Origin: Aureispira sp. CCB-QB1
GTDB taxonomy: Bacteria; Bacteroidota; Bacteroidia; Chitinophagales; Saprospiraceae
Length of the DNA stretch: 64,000 nucleotides
Direction of reading: 5' to 3'
Assembly: GCF_000724545.1 (NCBI RefSeq)
Contig: NZ_JHBV01000016.1
Coordinates: 62,001-126,000, forward strand
In this document: positions 11,094-23,148 of the stretch, one piece after another
Numbering within the stretch: the stretch's first letter is position 1
How the letters are laid out: each line of letters opens with the position of its first letter
Position numbers and translations under genes: made by a program
The notes under the pieces: generated by a model
Told to the model about the DNA's origin: nothing
The model's database searches: none
What the model saw: only the letters and a program-made list of their open reading frames with translations

Positions 11094-12164
11094 TCATTTT
11101 TTTGACAACACCTTGTGCTGGTGTTTGATAGATTCCTGATGCAAAGCTTCTAAGTATTTTTTTAAGAAACGTTCGCTTAACCCCAAATGTTTGCCTGTTT
11201 TAACCCTAGAATCCAATAGACTCCCCCAACGCTGTTGTTGCAAAATAGAGAGGTTATTCTTTTGCTTGAACAATCCAATCTCCTTGGACACTTCCATTCT
11301 AGAAACCAAAAGTTCTAACAAGGCATCGTCAATTTTGTTAATGTTCTCTCTAAGCAGGTCTAATGTCCGTTGTTCGTTAGGGTTAGAAAGTTCTTTTAAA
11401 GGAACTTTCAACTCAGAAAGGATATGATCCAACTGTTCCGGTGTTACTTGTTGCTGGGCATCACTCCAAGCGGCATCTGGTTGTTGATGCGTCTCAATCA
11501 TCAATCCGTCAAAATTCAACTCGTATGCATATTGAGCAATAGAGGCAATAAGATCCCTATTTCCTCCGATGTGGCTAGGATCGCAAAAGAGTTCAATTTG
11601 TGGCAATTCTTTTTTTAATGCAATCGGTATTTCCCACAATGGCTTGTTTCTATAAATTGATTTTTGATGACTAGAAAATCCTCGATGCACAGCCGCAATT
11701 TGTTGCAATCCACTTTTGTAAAAACGCTCGATGGCTCCCATCCACAGTCCCAAATCAGGGCTTGGTGGGTTCTTAACCAAAACAGGAATATCTACCCCTT
11801 TTAATGCACTTGCAATTTCTTGAACCGAGAAGGGATTCGTCGTTGTTCTAGAACCAACCCATAATATATCAACCTCATACTTCAAGGCTAATTCTACGTG
11901 CTTAGCTGTAGCCACCTCAATTGTCGTTGGTAAATGAGTGGCTTGCTTCACCTCCTGCAACCATTGTAGCCCAATCTCTCCTACGCCTTCAAAATGCCCA
12001 GGGCGAGTTCTCGGCTTCCAAATTCCCGCTCGTAAAATATCTACCGTTCCTAAAGCCGCTAGCTGCATACAAGTTTGATATAATTGCTCTTTGGTTTCTG
12101 CACTACAGGGACCAGCAATAATTGTTGGACTATTTTTCTTCTTGATAATGGGTAGTAATTTCAT
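11094..12164 (-). CDS. Bifunctional DAHP synthase / chorismate mutase (type II)
   Basis: The 356 residues hold two domains. Residues 1-255 are a class I beta-type 3-deoxy-D-arabino-heptulosonate 7-phosphate synthase, condensing PEP and erythrose 4-phosphate, the first step of the shikimate pathway. Signatures are IIAGPCSAE (residues 15-23), GIWKPRTRPGHFEG (48-61) and CDPSHIGG. The C-terminal about 90 residues are an AroQ-type chorismate mutase helix bundle (LDLLRENINKIDDALLELL, then SRMEVSKEIGLFKQ). This fusion is common in Bacteroidota. It follows pheA in the same direction after 103 nt, so first and last enzymes of Phe synthesis share the attenuated leader upstream of pheA. The symbol is left empty because naming of the fusion varies (aroF/aroG/aroQ). 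Confidence 0.94.
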   Translation of the reverse strand: MKLLPIIKKKNSPTIIAGPCSAETKEQLYQTCMQLAALGTVDILRAGIWKPRTRPGHFEGVGEIGLQWLQEVKQATHLPTTIEVATAKHVELALKYEVDILWVGSRTTTNPFSVQEIASALKGVDIPVLVKNPPSPDLGLWMGAIERFYKSGLQQIAAVHRGFSSHQKSIYRNKPLWEIPIALKKELPQIELFCDPSHIGGNRDLIASIAQYAYELNFDGLMIETHQQPDAAWSDAQQQVTPEQLDHILSELKVPLKELSNPNEQRTLDLLRENINKIDDALLELLVSRMEVSKEIGLFKQKNNLSILQQQRWGSLLDSRVKTGKHLGLSERFLKKYLEALHQESIKHQHKVLSKK

Positions 12165-12267: not shown

Positions 12268-13116
12268 TTATTTGATTTCAGACCAGAGCGGCGTTGTTGC
12301 TTTTTGATACGTTCCCAATACAGAATAGTCTAGCGTTACTTTTTCTAATTGCATCAACGATTTTTGAAAACAACTAAAATTGTTAAATTCTAAATCTGCT
12401 ATAAATTCATATGTATTGGAAATCGTTCCCAAAGGAAAAGAATGCAACTTGCTAAGGTTTATTTTTAATGCTTGAAGTTGTAACAATACGCTTGACAAAC
12501 GCTCTGCTTTCTGATCTAATCGAAAAATAATCGTCGCTTTATTGTGTTCTTTTTGTTCTCCTTGTTTGGATTTGGAAAGGATAAAAAACCGAGTATAGTT
12601 GTTCTTATTATTTTGAATATTAGAAGCTAAAATTTCTAAGCCGTAATAACTACTAGCCAATGAACTAGCTATCGCTGCCACGCCTTTTAGGTGCTGTTGT
12701 GAAATTTCTTTGGCAGCAGAAGCTGTATCCGAACAGGCTAACAATCGAGTAGCAGGATGGATTCTAGCTAAGTAATTACTACATTGCTTAATTGCCATGG
12801 GGTGCGTTCTAATTTCCCATATATCATAAATAGATGTTTTGGGAAGTGCAACTAAATGGTGTTGAATATTTAACAGCAACTCTCCCCGTATACAAATGTC
12901 TAAATCTTGAAGAGAATTATAATGATTGGTAACCGATCCTGCTATGGTATTTTCTATCGCCAAAATACCTCCTTCGCAATTAGGGTTCTGTTTGACTTCT
13001 TGCAGTACCTCTTTCGGTGTTTTACAAGGAATAATTTTGATGGATTCTTGGTAATAATGTTTTGCTGCAATTTCGTGAAAGCTTGCTGCTGTTCCTAGGA
13101 TAGCTATTGTCTTCAT
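12268..13116 (-). CDS. pheA: Prephenate dehydratase
   Basis: The 282-residue monofunctional enzyme converts prephenate to phenylpyruvate. Catalytic-domain signatures are ILAIENTIAGSV (residues 51-62, the ENS/T motif) and NYTRFF (173-178), with the catalytic Thr175 in TRF. A C-terminal ACT domain (about 193-275) would bind Phe. Its second motif, normally ESRP, reads LHSFP here, and the first (GAL) region reads AERLSSVL, so the usual allosteric residues are not conserved. It heads an operon with the DAHP synthase/chorismate mutase gene. It is preceded by a 350-nt leader with two Phe-rich leader peptides and two terminators, so transcription attenuation is strongly suggested. Confidence 0.95.
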   Translation of the reverse strand: MKTIAILGTAASFHEIAAKHYYQESIKIIPCKTPKEVLQEVKQNPNCEGGILAIENTIAGSVTNHYNSLQDLDICIRGELLLNIQHHLVALPKTSIYDIWEIRTHPMAIKQCSNYLARIHPATRLLACSDTASAAKEISQQHLKGVAAIASSLASSYYGLEILASNIQNNKNNYTRFFILSKSKQGEQKEHNKATIIFRLDQKAERLSSVLLQLQALKINLSKLHSFPLGTISNTYEFIADLEFNNFSCFQKSLMQLEKVTLDYSVLGTYQKATTPLWSEIK

Positions 13117-13143
13117 AAAAGGTGAAATTTAGATAAAAAAAAA

Positions 13144-13167
13144 TCCCAACTTGATGAGAAGTTGAGA
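13144..13167 (-). terminator. Attenuator terminator 2 (proximal to pheA)
   Basis: On the minus strand TCTCAACTT (13167-13159), a 6-nt loop and AAGTTGGGA (13152-13144) form a 9-bp stem with one G-T pair. Nine T follow (plus-strand A 13135-13143). It ends 18 nt before the pheA ATG, so when it forms, pheA is not transcribed. Confidence 0.85.
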
Positions 13168-13199
13168 CTTGTAATATGATGATTCTTAATTCCGATATT

Positions 13200-13295
13200 T
13201 TATATATGAATACTACAAGTCCGCCCTTTTCTAAAAAAGAAAAAGTAATACAGATTAAATAGATTTGACAGACGGTATAGTAAGGTGCTTTTCAT
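13200..13295 (-). CDS. Phe/Tyr-rich leader peptide 2 of the pheA attenuator
   Basis: A 31-codon frame runs from ATG at 13295-13293 to TAA at 13202-13200. Codons 16-21 are TAT TAC TTT TTC TTT TTT, giving YYFFFF. Another Tyr is at codon 7 and a Phe at codon 13. Such a run in a short frame directly between two terminators upstream of pheA is what a ribosome-sensing attenuator needs. Shortage of charged tRNA-Phe (or tRNA-Tyr) would stall the ribosome there. It is too short for ordinary gene finders. Confidence 0.82.
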   Translation of the reverse strand: MKSTLLYRLSNLFNLYYFFFFRKGRTCSIHI

Positions 13296-13314
13296 TATTG
13301 GTAAAAATAAAAAA

Positions 13315-13338
13315 GCGTCTCTCATTGATGAGAGACGC
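13315..13338 (-). terminator. Attenuator terminator 1 (distal)
   Basis: GCGTCTCTCAT (13315-13325) and ATGAGAGACGC (13328-13338) form a perfect 11-bp stem with a tight loop. It is flanked by A 13309-13314 (T tract on minus) and T 13339-13343. It is the strongest hairpin of the leader, lying 39 nt past leader peptide 1 and 20 nt before the ATG of leader peptide 2. Confidence 0.88.
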
Positions 13339-13376
13339 TTTTTAGATGAATTTATGGTATACTTTATTGCTCTCTC

Positions 13377-13436
13377 TTAGTTTGATAAACTAAAAAAGAA
13401 AAAATAAGTAGTTGTATGTAGATTGTTTAATATCAT
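13377..13436 (-). CDS. Phe-rich leader peptide 1 of the pheA attenuator
   Basis: A 19-codon frame runs from ATG at 13436-13434 to TAA at 13379-13377. Codons 11-15 are TAT TTT TTC TTT TTT, giving YFFFF four codons before the end. The 14-nt stretch TTTTTCTTTTTTAG is shared with leader peptide 2, hinting that one unit was copied from the other. The ATG lies about 37 nt after the predicted transcript start. Confidence 0.82.
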   Translation of the reverse strand: MILNNLHTTTYFFFFSLSN

Positions 13437-13479
13437 TGTTGTTGATTTATTAGAGTAATAACTACTCCTTATCTTAAAA

Positions 13480-13510
13480 CAAAGAGAAACGTTTTTTTTT
13501 GAAAATGCAA
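13480..13510 (-). promoter_or_regulatory. Promoter of the pheA attenuator leader
   Basis: On the minus strand TTG (13510-13508) is followed after 20 nt by TCTCTTTG (13487-13480). That is the Bacteroidota -33/-7 layout with one mismatch to TAnnTTTG. Transcription would start near 13473, upstream of leader peptide 1, as the attenuation model needs. Confidence 0.5.
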
Positions 13511-13746: not shown

Positions 13747-16700
13747 ATGCAAAACTTGGATATTCGTTTTCTTAATAACCTAAAAGACAAACTTAGTACA
13801 GACAATCTGCAATCCATTTACCTCAATGCTCTTCCCAAACGTTATCTTACACGCCTTGACTTGGCAGACCTTGATGTTTTGCAACAAGGAAAAGCAAAAA
13901 GTTTTTTGGACTTCTTGTTTACCCAATCAAGGTTTGATTTCCCCATTACTTTTCCGATAGATGGAAACATCAACAATCAGCAAGAAAAAATTATCCGTAG
14001 ATTGAGTTCTATTGCAATTGAAAATAACGACCACTACGCCGATCACGGAAATAAGACATTTGGTTTTGGATATCCAATTATTCTCATCAAAGACCCTAAT
14101 GATGCCAATAGGATTATCAAAGCCCCCTTAATTATTTGGTCGCTTGATATTGAACGTGATTTTAACCGCAAAAATCAATGGCTGATTCGAAAAAAAGAGC
14201 ATTTTTCTGTGGCGACCAATACCGTACTAGCAACGTTTCTACGCAATCACACGAATATCGTTTTGCAACCTATGTACGATCAGATGTTAGAAGATTCTAT
14301 TTTGGACAAAGATGAGTTGGCAGAGATGGCACAGTTGCATATGCAACAACTTAATCCCAATATATCCAACCGTACCAAACTCCTTTTTAGAAAGGTGCTT
14401 GATGGTGATGTTGCTCGTATAAAAACAGAACAAGAAATTGCAACACTCCCACTAGATACCCCTGCCATCTTATGGTCTGGTGTTTTTGGTCTATTCCGTT
14501 CTCAAAAAGATGCAATTATCAAAGATTTAGATTTCTTTGCACAACACATCAATCAGTTGCAACCTCTTGTCGAACAAAATCCCAATCCCAAAGATCCCAA
14601 CCGTTCTTCTTTTATGAAACACAGTTTCACCATGTTGGAAACGGATCCTAGCCAGCAACATCTATTACACCAATTGTCAAAAGGGCAGAACTTAGTCATC
14701 CAAGGTCCCCCTGGTACGGGAAAAAGCCAAACCTTGACAGGCATTATTGCCAACACCATTTCTAATGCTGGAACTTGCCTAATTGTTTCAGAGAAAAAAA
14801 ATGCGTTGGATATCATTTATAATACCTTAAAAAAAATGGGCTTGGAAGAACTGTGTGTTATAGTGGAAGATGTCTATAGAGATCGCCCAGCATTAGTACA
14901 TTCTGTTCGAGAACGGGCAGGCTTGCAGCAGCAACCCTATCGAGTATCGCCTAGTTTTATTCGACTTTTACAAAGTTGTGCTGCTCACGTAGAGCGTTTG
15001 CAAGCATTTCACAAAAAGCTACACCAACCACTTTCGGGGGACGAAACTTGGACCGACTTAGTTGGGCGTTATTTGGATAGTAATCGCCAACATGATAAAG
15101 GGTTGCTTGTCGGCTTGTTAAAAACCAGTGATTTTAAATTTACGCCCACCGAATTTGAAGATATTTTAAGCATTCTTTCTGAAGGAGAAGGCTTATTCAA
15201 ACAGTTAGGCACCCTCAATCATCCACTCAATGCCTTAAACGACCGTTTTTTCCGTCAAGCTAATTCTATACAAGTAGAGGCCGATACAAAAAAAGCATTA
15301 GACAATGTTTGTTTTGTCGTCCAATCTGCTCAACGAGATGCATTTTCGTACTTGTTTGAATATGAGCAATTGTTAGAAAAACACTTTTCTAAAGTATACC
15401 TGTCTAAAATGAAATTGGCAGATCGAATTGTTGATATTATTGAAGCAGGTTTTGCTCAATCTAAGTACTACTTTAACAAGAATGGTGGTTTCTATCGCAA
15501 ATTGATGAAAAATGTCAGCGATAAGTACAAAAAATTGGAAGCAGAGAAAGTCGACGTTTTGGAATCGTTCTTACGATTACAAAAAACCCATGCTCAGTAT
15601 GCTTATTTTAAACATCAGTTTATGGACGTGAGCGATCACAACAAACTGGAGTTCCAAAAGTTGCTAGAGCATGTTATTGATTATAAAGCAAAAGTTTACG
15701 ACTGGTTCGAAGGACGAGCACCTTTCATTCAACGATTGGTCAAGGAGTTAGGACCAGGGAAAATTTACAAATATGTTTCTTTTGACAAGCGAGTCACTGA
15801 AATCACCAAAAATCTGAACACTTTTGAAAAGAATTTTGCTACTAGCAATGTTTTCAAAGTTCAGTTCAAATTTGTTACCAACAACATCCGAAAACGCCTT
15901 ACTCAGATTGAGGCTTTAGACAACAATCTTCAAAAACTAAAAGAAGAGTTTGATAATTTTACCGCATATCATGCCCTTAAGTTTTTCTGGCTTAAGCTTA
16001 GCCCACATCAACAAACCGCCTTGCATGGCTTATCGCAAGCCAATCCCAAGGACTGGACAGGGGCTTTTACCTCTTGGTATTTGTCGAATTTCTTAGCTCA
16101 TCACAACGACAAGTTTATTCCTGATGAGAATAGTTATGCAGCGAATAGAAATGGTTATTTGAAAGATTTAAATACACTACAAAATACGCTGGTTAGCCAT
16201 ACGCTAAAATATTGGCGTGGCAAACAAACGCAAGCTGTTCAAGAATTTCACAGAAAGAAGGCACCGCTTACGCTCAACAATTTATACAATACAGGCGGAC
16301 ACAATCACAGCGCTCGTACCCCTTTGAGAAAAATCATAGAAACCGCTCCAGAGGTATTCAAAAGTTTTTTTCCTGTTTTAATGGTCAGCCCTGCTGTTTG
16401 TTCCCAAATTTTGCCCTTACATCCAGGTATGTTTGATGTCGTTCTTTTTGACGAGGCTAGTCAGCTCAATTTGGAAGAAAGTTTTGCTGCATTGGTTCGA
16501 GGGAAATACAAAATTATATCAGGAGATAGCCATCAAATGCCACCGCCCAATAGTTTTCACAACTCTCCTATCACAAGCAATCAGCAAGATTTTGTCATGG
16601 ACGATGAATATTGGAATTCTTCTCAAAATATGGTTGATAAGAATATTGATTACTTAACCAACGCTCCTTCCTTATTGGAGTATGGTTTATCAACAGGAAC

Positions 16701-17766
16701 TTACCAAGAGTGTTTTTTAGAAGTACATTATCGTTCCAAACATCCTTATTTGATTGATTTTTCAAATGCTGCCTTTTATGGTAAGCGGTTGACGTCTTTG
16801 CCTTTGGAAGAAGAAGCCTATATTCCGATTGAGTTCAAAGAGATTAATGGTATTTATAACAATTATTGCAATCTATCTGAAGCCAAAGCAATTGTCAATT
16901 ACTTATTAGAATTAATTACAGATGCCACTCCTTGTCCTTCTGTCGGAATTGCTACCTTCAATCTACATCAACGCAACTTAATTTTGGAAGAGATCCATCA
17001 ATTGGCACATCAACAACCAGAAGCCAGAACGAAGTTTCAGTTTTTATTTGAAAATGGTCTGTTTGTAAAAAGTTTGGAAAATATACAAGGAGACGAACGA
17101 GATATTTTGATTCTTTCAACTACGTTTGGCTTGCGAGAAGATGGTTCTATGCCACAACAGTGGGGATATATCAATGAATATGAAGGGCATAAATTACTTA
17201 ATGTAGCGGTTACTAGAGCCAAACAAAAGGTTTGTATTTTTAATTCTATCCCAACTCTATACTACCAAACTTACCCCCAAGAAATTCAAAAAAATGGCAA
17301 TACGGGCAAAAGTATCTTATACGCTTATTTAGCCTACGCTAATGCGGTTCAACAACAAGACGAAGCAACTCGATTAGCGATTTTAGATTTAGTTTATAAA
17401 CATTGCCCTAAAAAACCAGTAGATGATTTTCTCTATGATGGTAAAATCAATTTGTTTGAACAACAAGTACTTCAGTTTTTAGAATTAGAATTTCCAAATT
17501 TAAAAATTGAAGCCAATTACCAACATGCTGGTTTTTCTTTGCCAATTGCTATCCTAGATGATCAAAACCAAGTTCGGCTTGCCTTTTATTATGATATTTA
17601 TCACCATAAATTATCAGAAGAAGCCTATGCTTGGGATTTGTTTCACGAGCAGTATTTGCATAAAATGGGGATTACTTGTTATAGAATTTGGTCTAAAGAA
17701 TGGTGGAACAATACCCACCAAGCTCAACAAAAACTCATCATTCAAATTCGTGATACAATGGGGTAA
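13747..17766 (+). CDS. SF1 helicase with DUF4011-like N-terminus and nuclease-like C-terminus (paralog 1)
   Basis: The 1339-residue product has helicase motifs in order: Walker A GPPGTGKS (residues 320-327), Walker B VLFDEAS (D902 E903), GDSHQMPP (motif III), VHYRSKHP (motif IV), NIQGDERDILILSTTFG (motif V) and LLNVAVTRAKQ (motif VI). This is the AAA_11/AAA_12 (UPF1/Dna2-like) layout. About 570 residues between Walker A and B form a helical, coiled-coil-rich insertion. Residues 1-300 resemble DUF4011 (GNKTFGFGYPIILI, APLIIWSLDI). The last about 100 residues resemble the Vsr/DUF559-type nuclease fold at the end of such proteins (CYRIWSKEWW), although the acidic centre reads FYYD rather than ECD. 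DUF4011-helicase-Vsr proteins have been listed as candidate antiphage systems (recalled, not checked). A close, longer paralog follows 96 nt downstream. Confidence 0.85.
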   Translation: MQNLDIRFLNNLKDKLSTDNLQSIYLNALPKRYLTRLDLADLDVLQQGKAKSFLDFLFTQSRFDFPITFPIDGNINNQQEKIIRRLSSIAIENNDHYADHGNKTFGFGYPIILIKDPNDANRIIKAPLIIWSLDIERDFNRKNQWLIRKKEHFSVATNTVLATFLRNHTNIVLQPMYDQMLEDSILDKDELAEMAQLHMQQLNPNISNRTKLLFRKVLDGDVARIKTEQEIATLPLDTPAILWSGVFGLFRSQKDAIIKDLDFFAQHINQLQPLVEQNPNPKDPNRSSFMKHSFTMLETDPSQQHLLHQLSKGQNLVIQGPPGTGKSQTLTGIIANTISNAGTCLIVSEKKNALDIIYNTLKKMGLEELCVIVEDVYRDRPALVHSVRERAGLQQQPYRVSPSFIRLLQSCAAHVERLQAFHKKLHQPLSGDETWTDLVGRYLDSNRQHDKGLLVGLLKTSDFKFTPTEFEDILSILSEGEGLFKQLGTLNHPLNALNDRFFRQANSIQVEADTKKALDNVCFVVQSAQRDAFSYLFEYEQLLEKHFSKVYLSKMKLADRIVDIIEAGFAQSKYYFNKNGGFYRKLMKNVSDKYKKLEAEKVDVLESFLRLQKTHAQYAYFKHQFMDVSDHNKLEFQKLLEHVIDYKAKVYDWFEGRAPFIQRLVKELGPGKIYKYVSFDKRVTEITKNLNTFEKNFATSNVFKVQFKFVTNNIRKRLTQIEALDNNLQKLKEEFDNFTAYHALKFFWLKLSPHQQTALHGLSQANPKDWTGAFTSWYLSNFLAHHNDKFIPDENSYAANRNGYLKDLNTLQNTLVSHTLKYWRGKQTQAVQEFHRKKAPLTLNNLYNTGGHNHSARTPLRKIIETAPEVFKSFFPVLMVSPAVCSQILPLHPGMFDVVLFDEASQLNLEESFAALVRGKYKIISGDSHQMPPPNSFHNSPITSNQQDFVMDDEYWNSSQNMVDKNIDYLTNAPSLLEYGLSTGTYQECFLEVHYRSKHPYLIDFSNAAFYGKRLTSLPLEEEAYIPIEFKEINGIYNNYCNLSEAKAIVNYLLELITDATPCPSVGIATFNLHQRNLILEEIHQLAHQQPEARTKFQFLFENGLFVKSLENIQGDERDILILSTTFGLREDGSMPQQWGYINEYEGHKLLNVAVTRAKQKVCIFNSIPTLYYQTYPQEIQKNGNTGKSILYAYLAYANAVQQQDEATRLAILDLVYKHCPKKPVDDFLYDGKINLFEQQVLQFLELEFPNLKIEANYQHAGFSLPIAILDDQNQVRLAFYYDIYHHKLSEEAYAWDLFHEQYLHKMGITCYRIWSKEWWNNTHQAQQKLIIQIRDTMG

Positions 17767-17862
17767 TTAATAATTTACTATCAGCTACAAGCTTTGTATC
17801 TGTGTAGAATTTCTAGGAATTGACTTCACTTCGTCACTCTTAGTATTACAAAAAGCTATACT

Positions 17863-20800
17863 ATGTTTAATCTTCGTTTTCTAAATAACTTAAAACAAAA
17901 ACTAACAACAGGAAATAGAGGCTCTATTTACCTCAATGCCTTGCCAGAACGTTATTTGAGTCGTTTAGATTTGGAAGACTTTAATACCTTGCGACCTCAT
18001 GCTGCCAAGGATTTTTTAGATACATTATGGAGTAAAAGGGCTTTCCGATTTCCGCTTAGTACCAACACAACAACTGACGACTCTGAAAAAGCAGCTTTAA
18101 ATACTATTTTTCGGCGACTATCTGTATTAACTATAGAAAATAACGATCATTTTACAGAGCAAGGAGTCAAGACCTTTGGTTTTGGTTTCCCGATTTTATT
18201 GTATCGTGATCAAAAAGACCCTAACCGCATCATCAAAGCTCCTTTGTTTGTTTGGTATTTGGATATTGAGCGCAATTTTAAACGTGCTAACGAGTGGCTC
18301 ATTACACGACAAGAAGAGTTTCCGATTATCCATAACCTAGTCTTAGCAGCTTTTTTGCATCAAAATGCTGCTGTGCAACTAACTCCTGTTGATGAGCAGC
18401 TACTGGATGATGCTATTCTGGATCAAGAAGAAATCATTCAATTGGTCTATACTCAATTATCTCAACTATATCCTAATCATACCCAAAACTTAAAGCAAGA
18501 TTTTAGAGCCGCATTAAAGGCACCTATTCAAGCCTTACCCTCCCGACAACAAATAGAACAATTGCCGTTAACACAAGCTAAAGTACTATGGTCTGGTGTT
18601 TTTGGTTTATTCAAATCTCAAAAAGAAAGTATTATCAATGATTTGGAATATTTCATGAACAACATCCAATCTTTACAACAAAAGATAGCGCAACAAGCTC
18701 AAGGACAGCAATTGATGGAACACTGCTTAACAGCCGTAGACATGGATCCTAGCCAACAGCACTTGCTATATTTGTTAGAAAAAGGGAATAATCTAGTGAT
18801 TCAGGGACCTCCTGGCACAGGCAAAAGTCAAACCTTAACGGGAATTATTTCCAACCTTTTGGCAAATAAAGGGACTTGTTTGGTGGTCTGTGAGAAAAAA
18901 ACAGCACTGGAAGTTGTTCAACAAAACTTAATCAAACTAGGTCTGGGCGAACTAACGGTCATTGTAGAAGATATTTATAGAGATCGGCAAGATGTTGTCA
19001 ATTCGGTAAGAGAACGAGCCCAACAAAAACACAGCAATTATACAACCTACCCTTCCTATGTCAAGCTACTTCAAAATTGCTTGAAAGAGATTCATCGGCT
19101 ACAAAACTTTCATCACAGTCAGCTTCAACCCCTGCTAGAAGAACACACTTGGGCAGATTTGGTCAATCAATTTTTGGATGCCAATGAAAAAGCAAACAAA
19201 AAAGCTTTGGAAGCTCATTTATCTCTAGAAAGCTTCTCATTTGAGGCCAATGAATTAGAGCATATCTTAGATAGTTTTGAACAAGCACAAGTGCTCTTGA
19301 AACCGCTCCAAACACTAGAACAGCCGCTGAATGCGATTCATTTTAAGCACTTTGAAGCCACTAGCGCAGCCTCTGCTAAATTAGCGATTCAAAGAACCTT
19401 GACGACTGCCTTGCGAGCAATTCAACAAGCGAAAGCAACAATTTCTAACACACAAAAACAGTACAAAGAGCAATTAGAAGAACATTATTACCATATTTAT
19501 CAGCAAAAAATAGAAAAAGCTAGTTCCATTTATCAACACATCCTATTTTTGTTGCGCCAAAATGTTGAGCAGCAGCTTCGCCTTGTTCAAAATGCCCAAG
19601 ATTTAATCCAAGAGGGAATTTCAACATACAATAAAACTTTAGAAGCACACTTTGAAGACTTGTATGCTCAAAAAATCAAAGGTATCGACCAAACAGCCAC
19701 CTTAATAAAAGGAGAAATATATAGCGCTGTTGATGAAGCTCTAACAACCATTAAAGAAGCCAAGGAAGATATTATGGCAGCGCTTTATGAGTACGAACGT
19801 TTGTTGGAGCAGCATTTTGAAGCTGTTTATATGCAAAAAATGGATTGGATTGATGAAATGGTTGGTACGATTGAAAATGGGTTGGCAGCTAGTCCTTTTT
19901 ATTTTAACAAAAATAAAGGCTTCTTTCGGGCTATTTTGCACGGCGTTGGTGCAAAATACAAGCAATTAGAGAAAGACAAAACAGCTGTTTTAAGTCGGTT
20001 TAGTGCCTTGCAAAAATTACATCAAAAACACCAGTATTTTAATTTTAAATTTTTATCAACCAAAGATAAAAAGACCTTCACTTTTCAAGCTTTACTAGAA
20101 CAGTTAGAGTCTTATCGAGAGGCGGTCGATCATTGGCATTTGCAACAAAATAGTATCATACAAAAAGAAGTTAGAGAACTCAATTCTAGATATAGCCTAA
20201 AAGCGGTCCCCTACAAGGAACAAGCTCAAAGTATCAACCAACATCTTAGTAATTTTAGATCAAAAATACTGCGCAACAAATTGATTCCTTTGGAATTTAA
20301 GTATAGAAGTCTGCGCTTGAGGGATCGCTTTGATCAATTGGAAGAAATCGAAAGTGATGTTCAGAAAATAAAAATAGGTATTGATGAGTTTGTTGCTAAG
20401 AATGAAACGAACTGGGCAGCTAATAGTTATGAATACAGCGCAGAAGAAACGCCTCAAGACATTACGTTTAGAACGGCTTTTGAAGCTCTGAGCCAAATTC
20501 ATGCACAACACAACTACTTTGAACATGATTTCATCCGCTTGGGTCGCCCTAGCCAATTAATGGATTATTATACTATTTTAGAACACCTGACAGCTTATCG
20601 AACCAAAGTAGAAACTTGGTATCCTACCCGTCTGCCTATTATTAAAAATTATCAAACTAATTTTAGGTTAAAACACCTTTATGCGCCCTTAGAATTTGAA
20701 GCAACAGTTGAAACTTGGGTACAACAATTGGCAGAGTATGCCCAAAAATACAATCAAGAACAACTTTTAAAATTGCCGTTTCAAAAAGAAAGTACCTTGT

Positions 20801-23148
20801 TTGTTGAGCAATTGGAAGAATGGAAAATGTTAGAAACACAATTAGAAGCGTGGCAAACAAATTTCGAATACGTTAAAACCTCCATGGATCAAGAATGGTC
20901 TCTGACGCTAGATGACAACTTCTCTACATCCAATACAACCTACACTCTAGAAAGCTTAGATCATCAATACCAGCAATTGATGCAATTGCATCAACAATAC
21001 AATTATTTTGATGTTAACTTTCCTAGTTCCCAACCTCTAAAAAGTTTGTTGCAACAAGAAGTACTCAAAACTATTCAGCAATACAGAATTTGGACCCAAC
21101 AGTGGTATCTAAATCGAACACCTATACTTAACAACCATATACAAGAGCTCAGTATTGATACCGTTCTGAATTATATTCCTTTAGCTTCGACTATAGCAAC
21201 TATTGCGGAGGACTTGCACCAATTTGAGGTCAATTTTAATGCCTTCCAACACCTTGAAACAACATTTAGTTTTAAGAACAATATTTTGAGTCAACAAAAA
21301 ACTCAATTGGAAGTATTGGAACAACAAGTAATCACCTTGCAAGGGGCTTTTAATAATTTTGAAGCTTATTATCCTTTTAGGCTGTATTGGCAGCAACTTT
21401 CAACGGCACAACAAGCCGCCTATCAAGCTCTTGCTCTTGTACAACCACACGACTGGGAAGCTTCTTTTACGAGTTGGTACTTATATGCGTTTTTGTTAAA
21501 ACACCAAAACTCTATTCCTGATCAACAACACTATACCCAACATAAAAACCACCTCTTAAATTACTTGGAAGAACTAAAAAAACTATTGGTTGCCCATAGT
21601 TTGCGTTACTGGCGAGCACAACAAAGCCAAGCAGTTGCAAGGTTTCACCAAGAGAAGGCGCCTATCAAACTCCACAGCTTGTATAACAAACGAGGGCATA
21701 CTGGTGGCAAGAGAACGCCTCTTAGAAAAATAATAGCTACTGATGCTCAACTATTCACTCGTTTTTTTCCTGTTCTATTGGTTAGTCCAAGTGTTTGTTC
21801 TTCTATTTTGCCTCTAGAACCGAATTTATTTGACGTAGTTATATTTGACGAGGCTAGTCAATTGCGTTTAGAGGACACCTTTTGTGCATTGATTAGAGGA
21901 CGCTATAAGGTTATCTCAGGAGATAGTCAACAAATGCCTCCTTCTGATTATTTTTTATCCAACACTACGTTGATTAACGACGATTGGGAAGAAGAAGTAT
22001 CGACTCCTATTTTGGTCAAAGAAAGCATTGATTTTCTAAGTCACACGGAATCACTGTTAGAGTATGCCTTGGCAGAAGGAAACTACAAAGAGTCATTCTT
22101 GGAGGTACATTACCGCTCTAAACATCCTTACTTGATCGATTTTTCGAATGCTGCTTTTTATAGTAATCGCTTGGCTCCTATGCCAAACCAAGAGCTCTAT
22201 AAGCCAATTGATTTTTTTGCTGTTAACGGTACTTACCTCAACTATACCAATCCGACAGAGGCGGAACAAATTATTGACTATATCATTCAAATAGCGCAAC
22301 CTCATCGTGGTAGTTCTTGTCCTTCTGTTGGCATTGCAACATTTAATATGCATCAACGCAACCTTATTTTAGAACGCATTCAACAACGAGGCGTGCAAAA
22401 TGACAAAGAGCGCACCCAACTTCAAAAATTATTCACGAATGGTTTATTTGTTAAAAATTTGGAAAACATACAAGGAGACGAACGGGATATTTTAGTTATT
22501 TCTACCACTTTTGGGCTTCGAGAAGATGGTTCTTTTATACAAAATTATGGTCCTATCAATCGTCAAAAAGGTTATCGCTTGCTGAATGTTATTATTACTA
22601 GAGCCAAGCAAAAACTGGCTATTTTCACGTCAATTCCTTCCAATTATTACGAACAATACCGCTCCGCTATTCAAGAAAAAGGGAATGTCGGGAAAGCCGT
22701 TTTTTACGCTTACTTAGCTTATGCCAAAGCCGTGCATGAAGAAGATCATCCTTCTAGGAAGGCAATTTTACAGCTTTTGCAAGAACATTCTCCAAGCGCT
22801 CTATTTGATGACTCTCTCTATTGGTCTAATGATAATGCTTTTAAGGAACGAGTCGCAAATTTCTTAAAACAGCATTTTCCTAATAGGGTCTTGGTGAATT
22901 ATCAATACGCAGGATTTACGATTCCCTTGTTGGTTAAAGATGCAACAGGAAAACCAACATGGGCTTTTGATTTTGACACCTTTCATCAAACCGCGTCCCA
23001 AGAGGCATATTGTTGGGATTTGTTTCGGGAACATCATTTAACCGAATTTGGTTTTATTTATCATCGTATATGGTCCAAAGATTGGTGGGACGATATTCAA
23101 ACGGCAAAGGAACAATTGCTAGAGTGGATAAAATCTCCCAAAGCATAA
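17863..23148 (+). CDS. SF1 helicase with expanded coiled-coil stalk (paralog 2)
   Basis: The 1761-residue paralog of the preceding gene has the same motifs: GPPGTGKS (315-322), VIFDEAS (D1329 E1330), GDSQQMPP, VHYRSKHP, NIQGDERDILVISTTFG and LLNVIITRAKQ. It also has the same C-terminal nuclease-like domain (AFDFDTFHQ, IYHRIWSKDWW). The stretch VHYRSKHPYLIDFSNAAFY is identical in both. It is longer because the stalk contains extra copies of two modules. A roughly 55-residue unit (LE.HF..LY.QK) appears near 537, 592 and 647. A roughly 160-residue unit (L..IH.QHNYF ... YR..V..WY....PI) appears near 716, 876 and 1039. Paralog 1 has one of each. The genes are probably co-transcribed. DNA translocation, repair or defence are all possible; no partner defence gene is seen. 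Confidence 0.85.
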   Translation: MFNLRFLNNLKQKLTTGNRGSIYLNALPERYLSRLDLEDFNTLRPHAAKDFLDTLWSKRAFRFPLSTNTTTDDSEKAALNTIFRRLSVLTIENNDHFTEQGVKTFGFGFPILLYRDQKDPNRIIKAPLFVWYLDIERNFKRANEWLITRQEEFPIIHNLVLAAFLHQNAAVQLTPVDEQLLDDAILDQEEIIQLVYTQLSQLYPNHTQNLKQDFRAALKAPIQALPSRQQIEQLPLTQAKVLWSGVFGLFKSQKESIINDLEYFMNNIQSLQQKIAQQAQGQQLMEHCLTAVDMDPSQQHLLYLLEKGNNLVIQGPPGTGKSQTLTGIISNLLANKGTCLVVCEKKTALEVVQQNLIKLGLGELTVIVEDIYRDRQDVVNSVRERAQQKHSNYTTYPSYVKLLQNCLKEIHRLQNFHHSQLQPLLEEHTWADLVNQFLDANEKANKKALEAHLSLESFSFEANELEHILDSFEQAQVLLKPLQTLEQPLNAIHFKHFEATSAASAKLAIQRTLTTALRAIQQAKATISNTQKQYKEQLEEHYYHIYQQKIEKASSIYQHILFLLRQNVEQQLRLVQNAQDLIQEGISTYNKTLEAHFEDLYAQKIKGIDQTATLIKGEIYSAVDEALTTIKEAKEDIMAALYEYERLLEQHFEAVYMQKMDWIDEMVGTIENGLAASPFYFNKNKGFFRAILHGVGAKYKQLEKDKTAVLSRFSALQKLHQKHQYFNFKFLSTKDKKTFTFQALLEQLESYREAVDHWHLQQNSIIQKEVRELNSRYSLKAVPYKEQAQSINQHLSNFRSKILRNKLIPLEFKYRSLRLRDRFDQLEEIESDVQKIKIGIDEFVAKNETNWAANSYEYSAEETPQDITFRTAFEALSQIHAQHNYFEHDFIRLGRPSQLMDYYTILEHLTAYRTKVETWYPTRLPIIKNYQTNFRLKHLYAPLEFEATVETWVQQLAEYAQKYNQEQLLKLPFQKESTLFVEQLEEWKMLETQLEAWQTNFEYVKTSMDQEWSLTLDDNFSTSNTTYTLESLDHQYQQLMQLHQQYNYFDVNFPSSQPLKSLLQQEVLKTIQQYRIWTQQWYLNRTPILNNHIQELSIDTVLNYIPLASTIATIAEDLHQFEVNFNAFQHLETTFSFKNNILSQQKTQLEVLEQQVITLQGAFNNFEAYYPFRLYWQQLSTAQQAAYQALALVQPHDWEASFTSWYLYAFLLKHQNSIPDQQHYTQHKNHLLNYLEELKKLLVAHSLRYWRAQQSQAVARFHQEKAPIKLHSLYNKRGHTGGKRTPLRKIIATDAQLFTRFFPVLLVSPSVCSSILPLEPNLFDVVIFDEASQLRLEDTFCALIRGRYKVISGDSQQMPPSDYFLSNTTLINDDWEEEVSTPILVKESIDFLSHTESLLEYALAEGNYKESFLEVHYRSKHPYLIDFSNAAFYSNRLAPMPNQELYKPIDFFAVNGTYLNYTNPTEAEQIIDYIIQIAQPHRGSSCPSVGIATFNMHQRNLILERIQQRGVQNDKERTQLQKLFTNGLFVKNLENIQGDERDILVISTTFGLREDGSFIQNYGPINRQKGYRLLNVIITRAKQKLAIFTSIPSNYYEQYRSAIQEKGNVGKAVFYAYLAYAKAVHEEDHPSRKAILQLLQEHSPSALFDDSLYWSNDNAFKERVANFLKQHFPNRVLVNYQYAGFTIPLLVKDATGKPTWAFDFDTFHQTASQEAYCWDLFREHHLTEFGFIYHRIWSKDWWDDIQTAKEQLLEWIKSPKA
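19471..19960 (+). repeat. Three tandem ~55-residue coiled-coil repeats in helicase paralog 2
   Basis: Protein-level repeats: LEEHYYHIYQQKIEKA, LEAHFEDLYAQKIKGID and LEQHFEAVYMQKMDWID, spaced about 54-55 residues. The third aligns with the single LEKHFSKVYLSKMKLAD of paralog 1. DNA identity between units is low, so the duplication is old. Confidence 0.7.
20008..21444 (+). repeat. Three tandem ~160-residue stalk modules in helicase paralog 2
   Basis: Each module starts with a His/Gln/Tyr/Phe box (LHQKHQYFNFKF, IHAQHNYFEHDF, LHQQYNYFDVNF) and has a second box about 29 residues later (SYREAVDHW, AYRTKVETWY, QYRIWTQQWY) followed by a PI(I/L) element. Spacing is about 160 and 163 residues. Paralog 1 has one module (THAQYAYFKHQF, DYKAKVYDWF). 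Confidence 0.7.

Follow-up and report, generated by a model that had tools for sequence, protein, structure and literature searches.

Two leader-peptide attenuation units lie in series upstream of pheA on the minus strand (13436-13141) of the DNA analysed here, and very probably they act as two ribosome-mediated transcription attenuators on a single pheA transcript. The DNA, hereafter the window, is a stretch of 64,000 nucleotides from Aureispira sp. CCB-QB1 and sits in G000:C16 of a 7.4-Mb genome. Tandem Phe attenuators at this place had been proposed in a first-pass annotation made from the sequence, and the proposal has held up well in computational analysis: two units were detected at 35 of the 99 distinct pheA loci of the Saprospiraceae, their antiterminators co-vary, and the promoter motif is found 5' of unit 1 only. 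Since roughly one in three of the related pheA genes examined has a doubled leader, the arrangement seems to be a genuine feature of regulation and no product of chance.

Layout of the pheA leader region

Reading the minus strand from 13510 to 13116, we found a promoter-like sequence, unit 1, unit 2 and pheA in this order, with both Phe-rich peptides and both terminators present as the annotation had it. The putative promoter (13480-13510) is of the Bacteroidota type and consists of TTG (13510-13508), a 20-nt spacer and TCTCTTTG (13487-13480). The last element has one mismatch to TAnnTTTG, which we take to be the Bacteroidota -7 promoter element, and the exact motif is absent from the window promoter. 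Leader peptide 1 (13377-13436; MILNNLHTTTYFFFFSLSN, then a stop codon) has 19 amino acids including YFFFF, with the control codons TAT TTT TTC TTT TTT at 13406-13392. Unit 1 also contains the three competing pairings that had been claimed for it, namely a protector hairpin (1:2), an antiterminator (2:3) and a terminator (3:4). The protector (13370-13400) appears in the minimum-free-energy fold as 14 pairs between 13400-13387 and 13383-13370, and the last three Phe codons of the leader are within its 5' arm. The antiterminator (13330-13376) pairs GAGAGAGC (13376-13369) with GCGTCTCTC (13338-13330), and terminator 1 (13310-13343; -21.2 kcal/mol) is a 15-pair stem with a T-rich tail on its 3' side.

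Leader peptide 2 (13200-13295; MKSTLLYRLSNLFNLYYFFFFRKGRTCSIHI, then a stop codon) has 31 amino acids including YYFFFF, and according to the list of open reading frames its frame is also open from an ATG ten codons further 5'. The antiterminator of unit 2 (13165-13222) is a 12-pair helix with two G-U pairs between GGACTTGTAGTA (13222-13211) and TATTACAAGTCT (13176-13165), and it has AAGTCT in common with terminator 2 (13141-13170; 12 pairs, then a T tract; -11.3 kcal/mol). The two terminator hairpins had been described with stems of 11 and 9 bp. The hairpins themselves are there, but the lengths were too short, as we count 15 and 12 pairs when end pairs and G-U pairs are taken in. The first gene 3' of the leaders is pheA (12268-13116, minus strand), coding for prephenate dehydratase (PF00800, E 1.3e-53). 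It is followed on the same strand by a DAHP synthase-chorismate mutase fusion gene (11094-12164; PF00793 and PF01817), which is probably in one operon with pheA.

Tests against chance

The folding of the leader RNA, suggested along with the original claim, gave -75.9 kcal/mol for 354 nt against a shuffle mean of -46.7 (z -6.7), with none of 100 shuffles as good. Runs of T in AT-rich DNA can look like Phe codons and terminators, and the 400 nt upstream of the window pheA have a GC content of only 26.5%, while TTT makes up 252 of the 571 aromatic codons of the tandem leaders. We nevertheless give an origin by chance practically no probability. A unit detector, which calls short ORFs rich in aromatic codons with a terminator hairpin 3' of them, detected both units of the window. 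Among 3000 composition-keeping shuffles of the 400 nt 5' of the window pheA, none gave two units and only 2 gave one. In 2000 dinucleotide shuffles of the family upstream regions it found two units in none and one unit in 8, and on the reverse strand two units in 0 of 100 and one unit in 1 of 100. The tandem loci moreover cover upstream GC contents of 23-47%, being above 40% at 6 of 35, and 231 of the 571 aromatic codons code for Tyr. Chance from T-rich sequence was thus ruled out by the shuffles and the relatives, by the result on the reverse strand, and by the control with pheS described below.

Occurrence in Saprospiraceae and beyond

A PheA match was present in 104 of 150 family genomes, from which 103 loci were taken, leaving out a partial match in G039. 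Dropping three loci with less than 300 nt upstream (L054, L060 and L105) left 100, of which L001 and L002 belong to one species, that of the window. The 99 distinct loci divide into 35 with a tandem, 54 with a single unit and 10 without any, where the last class may include leaders missed by the detector. Counting both records of the window species, the numbers are 36, 54 and 10 (n=100), and they become 31, 58 and 11 (n=100) under a stricter Phe criterion. The second genome of the species provides no independent evidence, since its 600 nt 5' of pheA are identical.

Comparison of the leaders upstream of pheA relatives had been named as a check, with absence from close relatives counting against the idea. 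At the family level no such absence was seen, in a comparison whose closest PheA outside the window species is only about 40-43% identical. No PheA match was found in the one same-genus genome of the family sample, and when named genomes were searched with the window PheA, 9 loci at 29-44% identity came up. Among Bacteroidia, 107 of 395 genomes gave a PDT match. Of these genomes, 101 lie outside the family, and 87 loci were examined there, one of which was too short. The 86 usable loci comprise 3 tandem, 53 single and 30 without a unit. The three tandems (L300, L323 and L324) come from one genus of another Bacteroidia family, in which all three genomes with a match have them.

Seven genes 3' of pheA were looked at in relatives and comprise six aminotransferases and one ilvD (L030). 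At L030 and L049, both scored as zero-unit loci, short ORFs 5' of pheA mix Phe with Ile/Val (MKNNFFINFIIICFYKPL and MKNSFFVNFIFICIYEPS), and ilvD lies 3' of pheA on the same strand. Possibly, the leader at these two loci serves a merged operon by sensing branched-chain amino acids along with Phe.

Each unit has its own antiterminator

Each unit of the window has its own antiterminator pairing, which fits the other unit poorly. The duplex of unit 1 has -12.0 kcal/mol (shuffle p 0.026) and falls to -4.6 with the arm of terminator 2; that of unit 2 has -15.7 kcal/mol (shuffle p 0.002) and falls to -6.8 with the arm of terminator 1. Over the 124 units of the family, pairing of region 2 with the terminator arm of its own unit averages -13.3 kcal/mol vs -9.3 for re-paired loci, and none of 10,000 permutations was as good, a count that is not a strict probability, the loci being related sequences. 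In 33 of the 35 tandem loci, own pairing is better than pairing crossed between the two units. Taken singly, antiterminators reached p<0.05 in a shuffled-spacer test in only 75 of 124 units. In the test that gave the p values of the window duplexes, 3 of 6 units of the tandems from the other family reached p<0.05, and the two ilvD units of L237 (see below) gave p 0.99 and 0.44. This test leaves out the terminator loop, and by eye the ilvD units pair as GGGGAAG/CTTCCCC and CAGGAAGG/CCTTCCTG.

A probable single transcript over both units

Both units are likely to be on one transcript, because the -7 motif precedes leader 1 at most tandem loci and never leader 2. Specifically, 31 of the 35 tandem loci have TAnnTTTG within 90 nt 5' of leader 1, compared to 2.7 expected from shuffles; the window is one of the four loci without the exact motif there. 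Between terminator 1 and the ATG of leader 2, where a mean of 32 nt was searched, it occurs in 0 of 35 loci (1.3 expected). Were unit 2 to have a promoter of its own, the upstream unit would make a separate short transcript and the units would not be in series. The cross-locus search covered the TAnnTTTG type of promoter only, which leaves this arrangement some room, but it is very improbable given that the motif is missing from the gap, that it is found anywhere from terminator 1 to pheA in 3 of 35 loci vs 6.6 expected by shuffling, and that the gap from terminator 1 to ATG 2 spans only 10-51 nt (14 nt in the window). An own promoter for unit 2 is therefore not supported by the motif counts. 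A transcription start downstream of 13200, which had been listed as an observation against tandem attenuation, is likewise unlikely, judging by sequence motifs only.

Proposed mechanism and gate logic

Under serial attenuation on one transcript, RNA polymerase would initiate 5' of leader 1. With ample charged tRNA-Phe (and tRNA-Tyr), the ribosome would reach the leader 1 stop codon, leaving region 2 masked or in the 1:2 hairpin, so that terminator 1 would form and transcription would end. If instead the ribosome stalled in the Phe/Tyr block, the partner of region 2 would be the terminator 5' arm, and the polymerase would continue. Once past unit 1, it would face the same test again at unit 2. 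Read-through should then be approximately the product of the two gates, giving a low leak when Phe is ample and a steeper response. From the predicted parts we infer that the region is transcribed, that the leaders are translated, that transcription ends at the hairpins, and that something is gained from the doubling.

We modeled the decision by folding the RNA up to the 3' arm of the terminator with the ribosome footprint masked, taking as output the probability that the terminator 5' arm is paired with upstream RNA; neither the speed of transcription nor the release of the ribosome enters this model. Over the 124 units, the arm was paired upstream at 0.72 with a stalled ribosome vs 0.38 with the ribosome at the stop codon, and the difference shrank to 0.53 vs 0.48 when the spacer was shuffled. 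For the window, the values for free RNA, ribosome at stop and stalled ribosome were 0.02, 0.02 and 0.53 in unit 1 and 0.53, 0.03 and 0.54 in unit 2. The corresponding means of the tandem loci (untranslated, stop, stalled) were 0.46, 0.31 and 0.73 for unit 1 and 0.76, 0.42 and 0.74 for unit 2. The 'stop' value of window unit 2 depends on the footprint, as region 2 of this unit is situated 5' of the stop codon: it was 0.03-0.17 with footprints of 15/13 or 17/16 nt and 0.49-0.67 with 12/12.

The two gates are therefore predicted by the model to be unequal, in that an untranslated unit 1 would terminate and unit 2 would let the polymerase pass except when a ribosome comes close to its stop codon. 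The protector of unit 1 has 14 pairs over the Phe codons, with an untranslated antitermination value of 0.02, and the protector of unit 2 is weak in the model, with an untranslated value of 0.53 or 0.68. In the untranslated state, in which the footprint is not involved, unit 2 had the higher value at 31 of 35 tandem loci, whichever 5' flank was used; the exceptions to this closed-then-open order among the pheA tandems of the family are L024, L045, L051 and L084. The order is also predicted at separately placed tandems (0.02 then 0.53 in the window, 0.29 then 0.73 at L067, and 0.28 then 0.79 at ilvD of L237), is weakly shown at L300 and L323, and is opposite at hisG of L145 (0.48 then 0.35) and at L324 (0.79 then 0.67). 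Tentatively, and with more doubt than belief, the gates may be complementary, gate 1 being closed unless the ribosome stalls at Phe/Tyr and gate 2 open unless the leader is finished, so that starvation could be told from a failure of translation. If this were true, the polymerase would pass under a shortage of aminoacyl-tRNA and would be blocked when the leader is untranslated.

The original annotation had also raised the idea that one of the units could sense Tyr. In its strong form, one unit would respond mainly to Phe and the other mainly to Tyr, forming an AND gate on amino acids of the same pathway. Such a division of labor is unlikely to be the general rule. Both leaders of the window are dominated by Phe (4 Phe and 1 Tyr in leader 1, 5 Phe and 3 Tyr in leader 2). 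Across the 35 tandem loci the mean Tyr fraction is 0.39 in unit 1 vs 0.45 in unit 2 (Wilcoxon p 0.053); unit 2 has the larger fraction at 20 loci and the smaller at 13, and the shift is weak overall. The idea has partial support in that nearly all tandem leaders are mixtures of Phe and Tyr and in individual relatives: unit 2 is shifted to Tyr (4-5 Tyr, 1-2 Phe) at L015, L044, L106 and L111, for example FFYWAYYYYESS, and at these four loci a Phe gate perhaps precedes a Tyr gate. At L052 the order is reversed, with the Tyr shift in unit 1, which speaks against a fixed assignment.

Origin and persistence of the doubling

A PheA tree was built with 118 rows, made up of the 99 family loci and 19 of 32 others; 13 minus-strand loci are absent, and the tree says little outside the family. 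The distribution of the two-unit state on this tree takes 20 changes, and well-supported branches force no fewer than 9 of these. Most tandems are within one clade of 71 rows, and the window and L067 are placed elsewhere. The nearest neighbor of a first unit was the first unit of another locus in 35 of 35 cases. For second units (n=35), it was a second unit in 24 cases, the first unit of another locus in 8 and the own partner in 3. The two units of one locus are more alike than re-paired units (0 of 5000). Among single units, 41 of 54 resemble first units, in a test that also classes 10 of 35 second units as first. Together these patterns fit an old duplication with many losses and some separate origins. 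The distribution further indicates that the second unit is dispensable over evolution, since the detector finds a single unit at 54 of the 99 loci of the family and no unit at 10.

It follows to ask whether the doubling may be a neutral relic, that is, a duplicated attenuator with one working unit and the other kept by drift. The 20 or more changes of the two-unit state, with their 9 or more forced events, imply that units come and go, and the 54 single loci point the same way. We still regard drift as distinctly unlikely, because the grouping of units by position (35/35 first and 24/35 second) makes both copies seem long kept, and because own antiterminators fit better than crossed ones in 33 of 35 loci. 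The three tandem loci of a genus from another family, and the doubled units that one genome has at hisG and ilvD, also argue against it.

Leaders at other operons of the family

As controls, we examined the regions upstream of hisG, trpE, ilvD and pheS, taking the best 30 loci each from the 33, 49, 35 and 57 genomes with a match, respectively. Among the matches listed, a unit with a Trp run was found at 27 of 30 trpE loci (all single), a unit with a His run at 19 of 29 hisG loci (18 single, 1 tandem), and an Ile/Val/Leu unit at 12 of 30 ilvD loci (11 single, 1 tandem). With the aromatic criterion used for pheA, hisG, trpE and ilvD scored 1/29, 3/30 and 1/30 among the matches listed. Upstream of pheS no leader was found with the codon sets F/Y/W, H, W and L/I/V (0/30 among the matches listed). 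These counts show that leader codons match the product of the operon and that doubling is mainly a trait of pheA. They also indicate that codon-matched leader attenuation is widely used in Saprospiraceae, for Trp, His, Ile/Val/Leu and Phe.

In the window genome itself, trpE (L214) has a single Trp leader unit (MQKETNISNFGQKSSNALVAWWWTTSLRWRE, then a stop codon), and a His leader was looked for at its hisG and not found. Genome G016 has tandems at three operons, pheA (L051), hisG (L145) and ilvD (L237), with the His peptides MILIQLHQHHHSSIRLLRR and MTCNIHFHHHHAFVEHCKW at L145 and the Ile/Val peptides MNTNIIISVIIINVIRN and MVTINIISIIIIIAVIVIIGP at L237.

Relation to known systems

In textbook attenuation there is one leader and one decision, and enterobacterial pheA is controlled by a single attenuator with the Phe leader peptide pheL. 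The leader region studied here resembles pheL in having a short Phe-rich leader ORF, an antiterminator and a predicted intrinsic terminator before pheA, and in unit 1 also a clear protector; it differs in having two units in series and in belonging to a different phylum. Three hallmarks of this class were found here: runs of codons for the amino acid of the operon (YFFFF and YYFFFF before pheA), predicted terminator-like hairpins between each leader ORF and what follows (two in total before the gene), and an antiterminator that co-varies with and excludes the terminator (0/10,000 permutations, 124 units). None of the 4227 Rfam models, searched for leader families, matched anywhere in the window at the gathering threshold. 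Vitreschak et al. in 2004 reportedly predicted attenuators by comparative genomics, some of them in Bacteroidetes, and this limits any claim to novelty. Leader-peptide attenuation as such is known. As far as our searches reach, a conserved tandem of units for the same signal in Bacteroidota is new within the literature searched, and the unequal logic of the two gates predicted by folding is possibly new as well.

In the open-licence PMC literature, searches on double or tandem attenuators with leaders, as well as on leaders in Bacteroidota or Saprospiraceae, brought up nothing closer than the following. In the mgtCBR leader of Salmonella, as described in the excerpted text of PMC3641672, two short ORFs each have an attenuator of their own, and the two act independently and additively; the arrangement of two short ORFs in one leader with one attenuator each is shared with the window. 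By the same excerpts, the mgtCBR signals are ATP and proline and the stem-loops are unlike intrinsic terminators, whereas here there are aromatic control codons and clear predicted intrinsic terminators in both units, with recurrence across a bacterial family. The combination of two different signals without an intrinsic terminator was not found in the window, both codon blocks being aromatic and both predicted terminators of the intrinsic type. The tandem riboswitches of B. clausii metE, as told in the same text (PMC3641672), similarly place two terminator-controlling elements in series, but there the RNA binds metabolites directly and here sensing would go through translation. Within Bacteroidota, a structured 5' element before pheA and strong clues of leader-peptide attenuation at amino-acid operons were reported for Flavobacterium psychrophilum (PMC9723704); this Flavobacteriaceae element is comparable to ours as a 5' element before pheA, and the excerpts of that paper describe no doubling. 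In Bacteroides thetaiotaomicron, sORFs in long 5' UTRs, several of them in one UTR, are reminiscent of attenuation leader peptides (PMC7366714). Unlike the window leaders, they precede a hypothetical protein, and no amino-acid code or terminators are described for them in the excerpted text. Overall, the Bacteroidota papers found gave, in the parts available, only hints of leader-peptide attenuation.

The pheA leaders with none, one and two gates that occur naturally in one family offer a test of what a second serial gate buys, a question that otherwise needs built circuits. Possible gains include a lower leak, a steeper response, an effect on noise and the sensing of a second amino acid.

Divergent from pheA, two large and similar ORFs (1339 and 1761 amino acids) lie adjacent to each other at 13747-23148 on the plus strand. 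Both have the nucleotide-binding motif GPPGTGKSQT and are presumably helicase-like.
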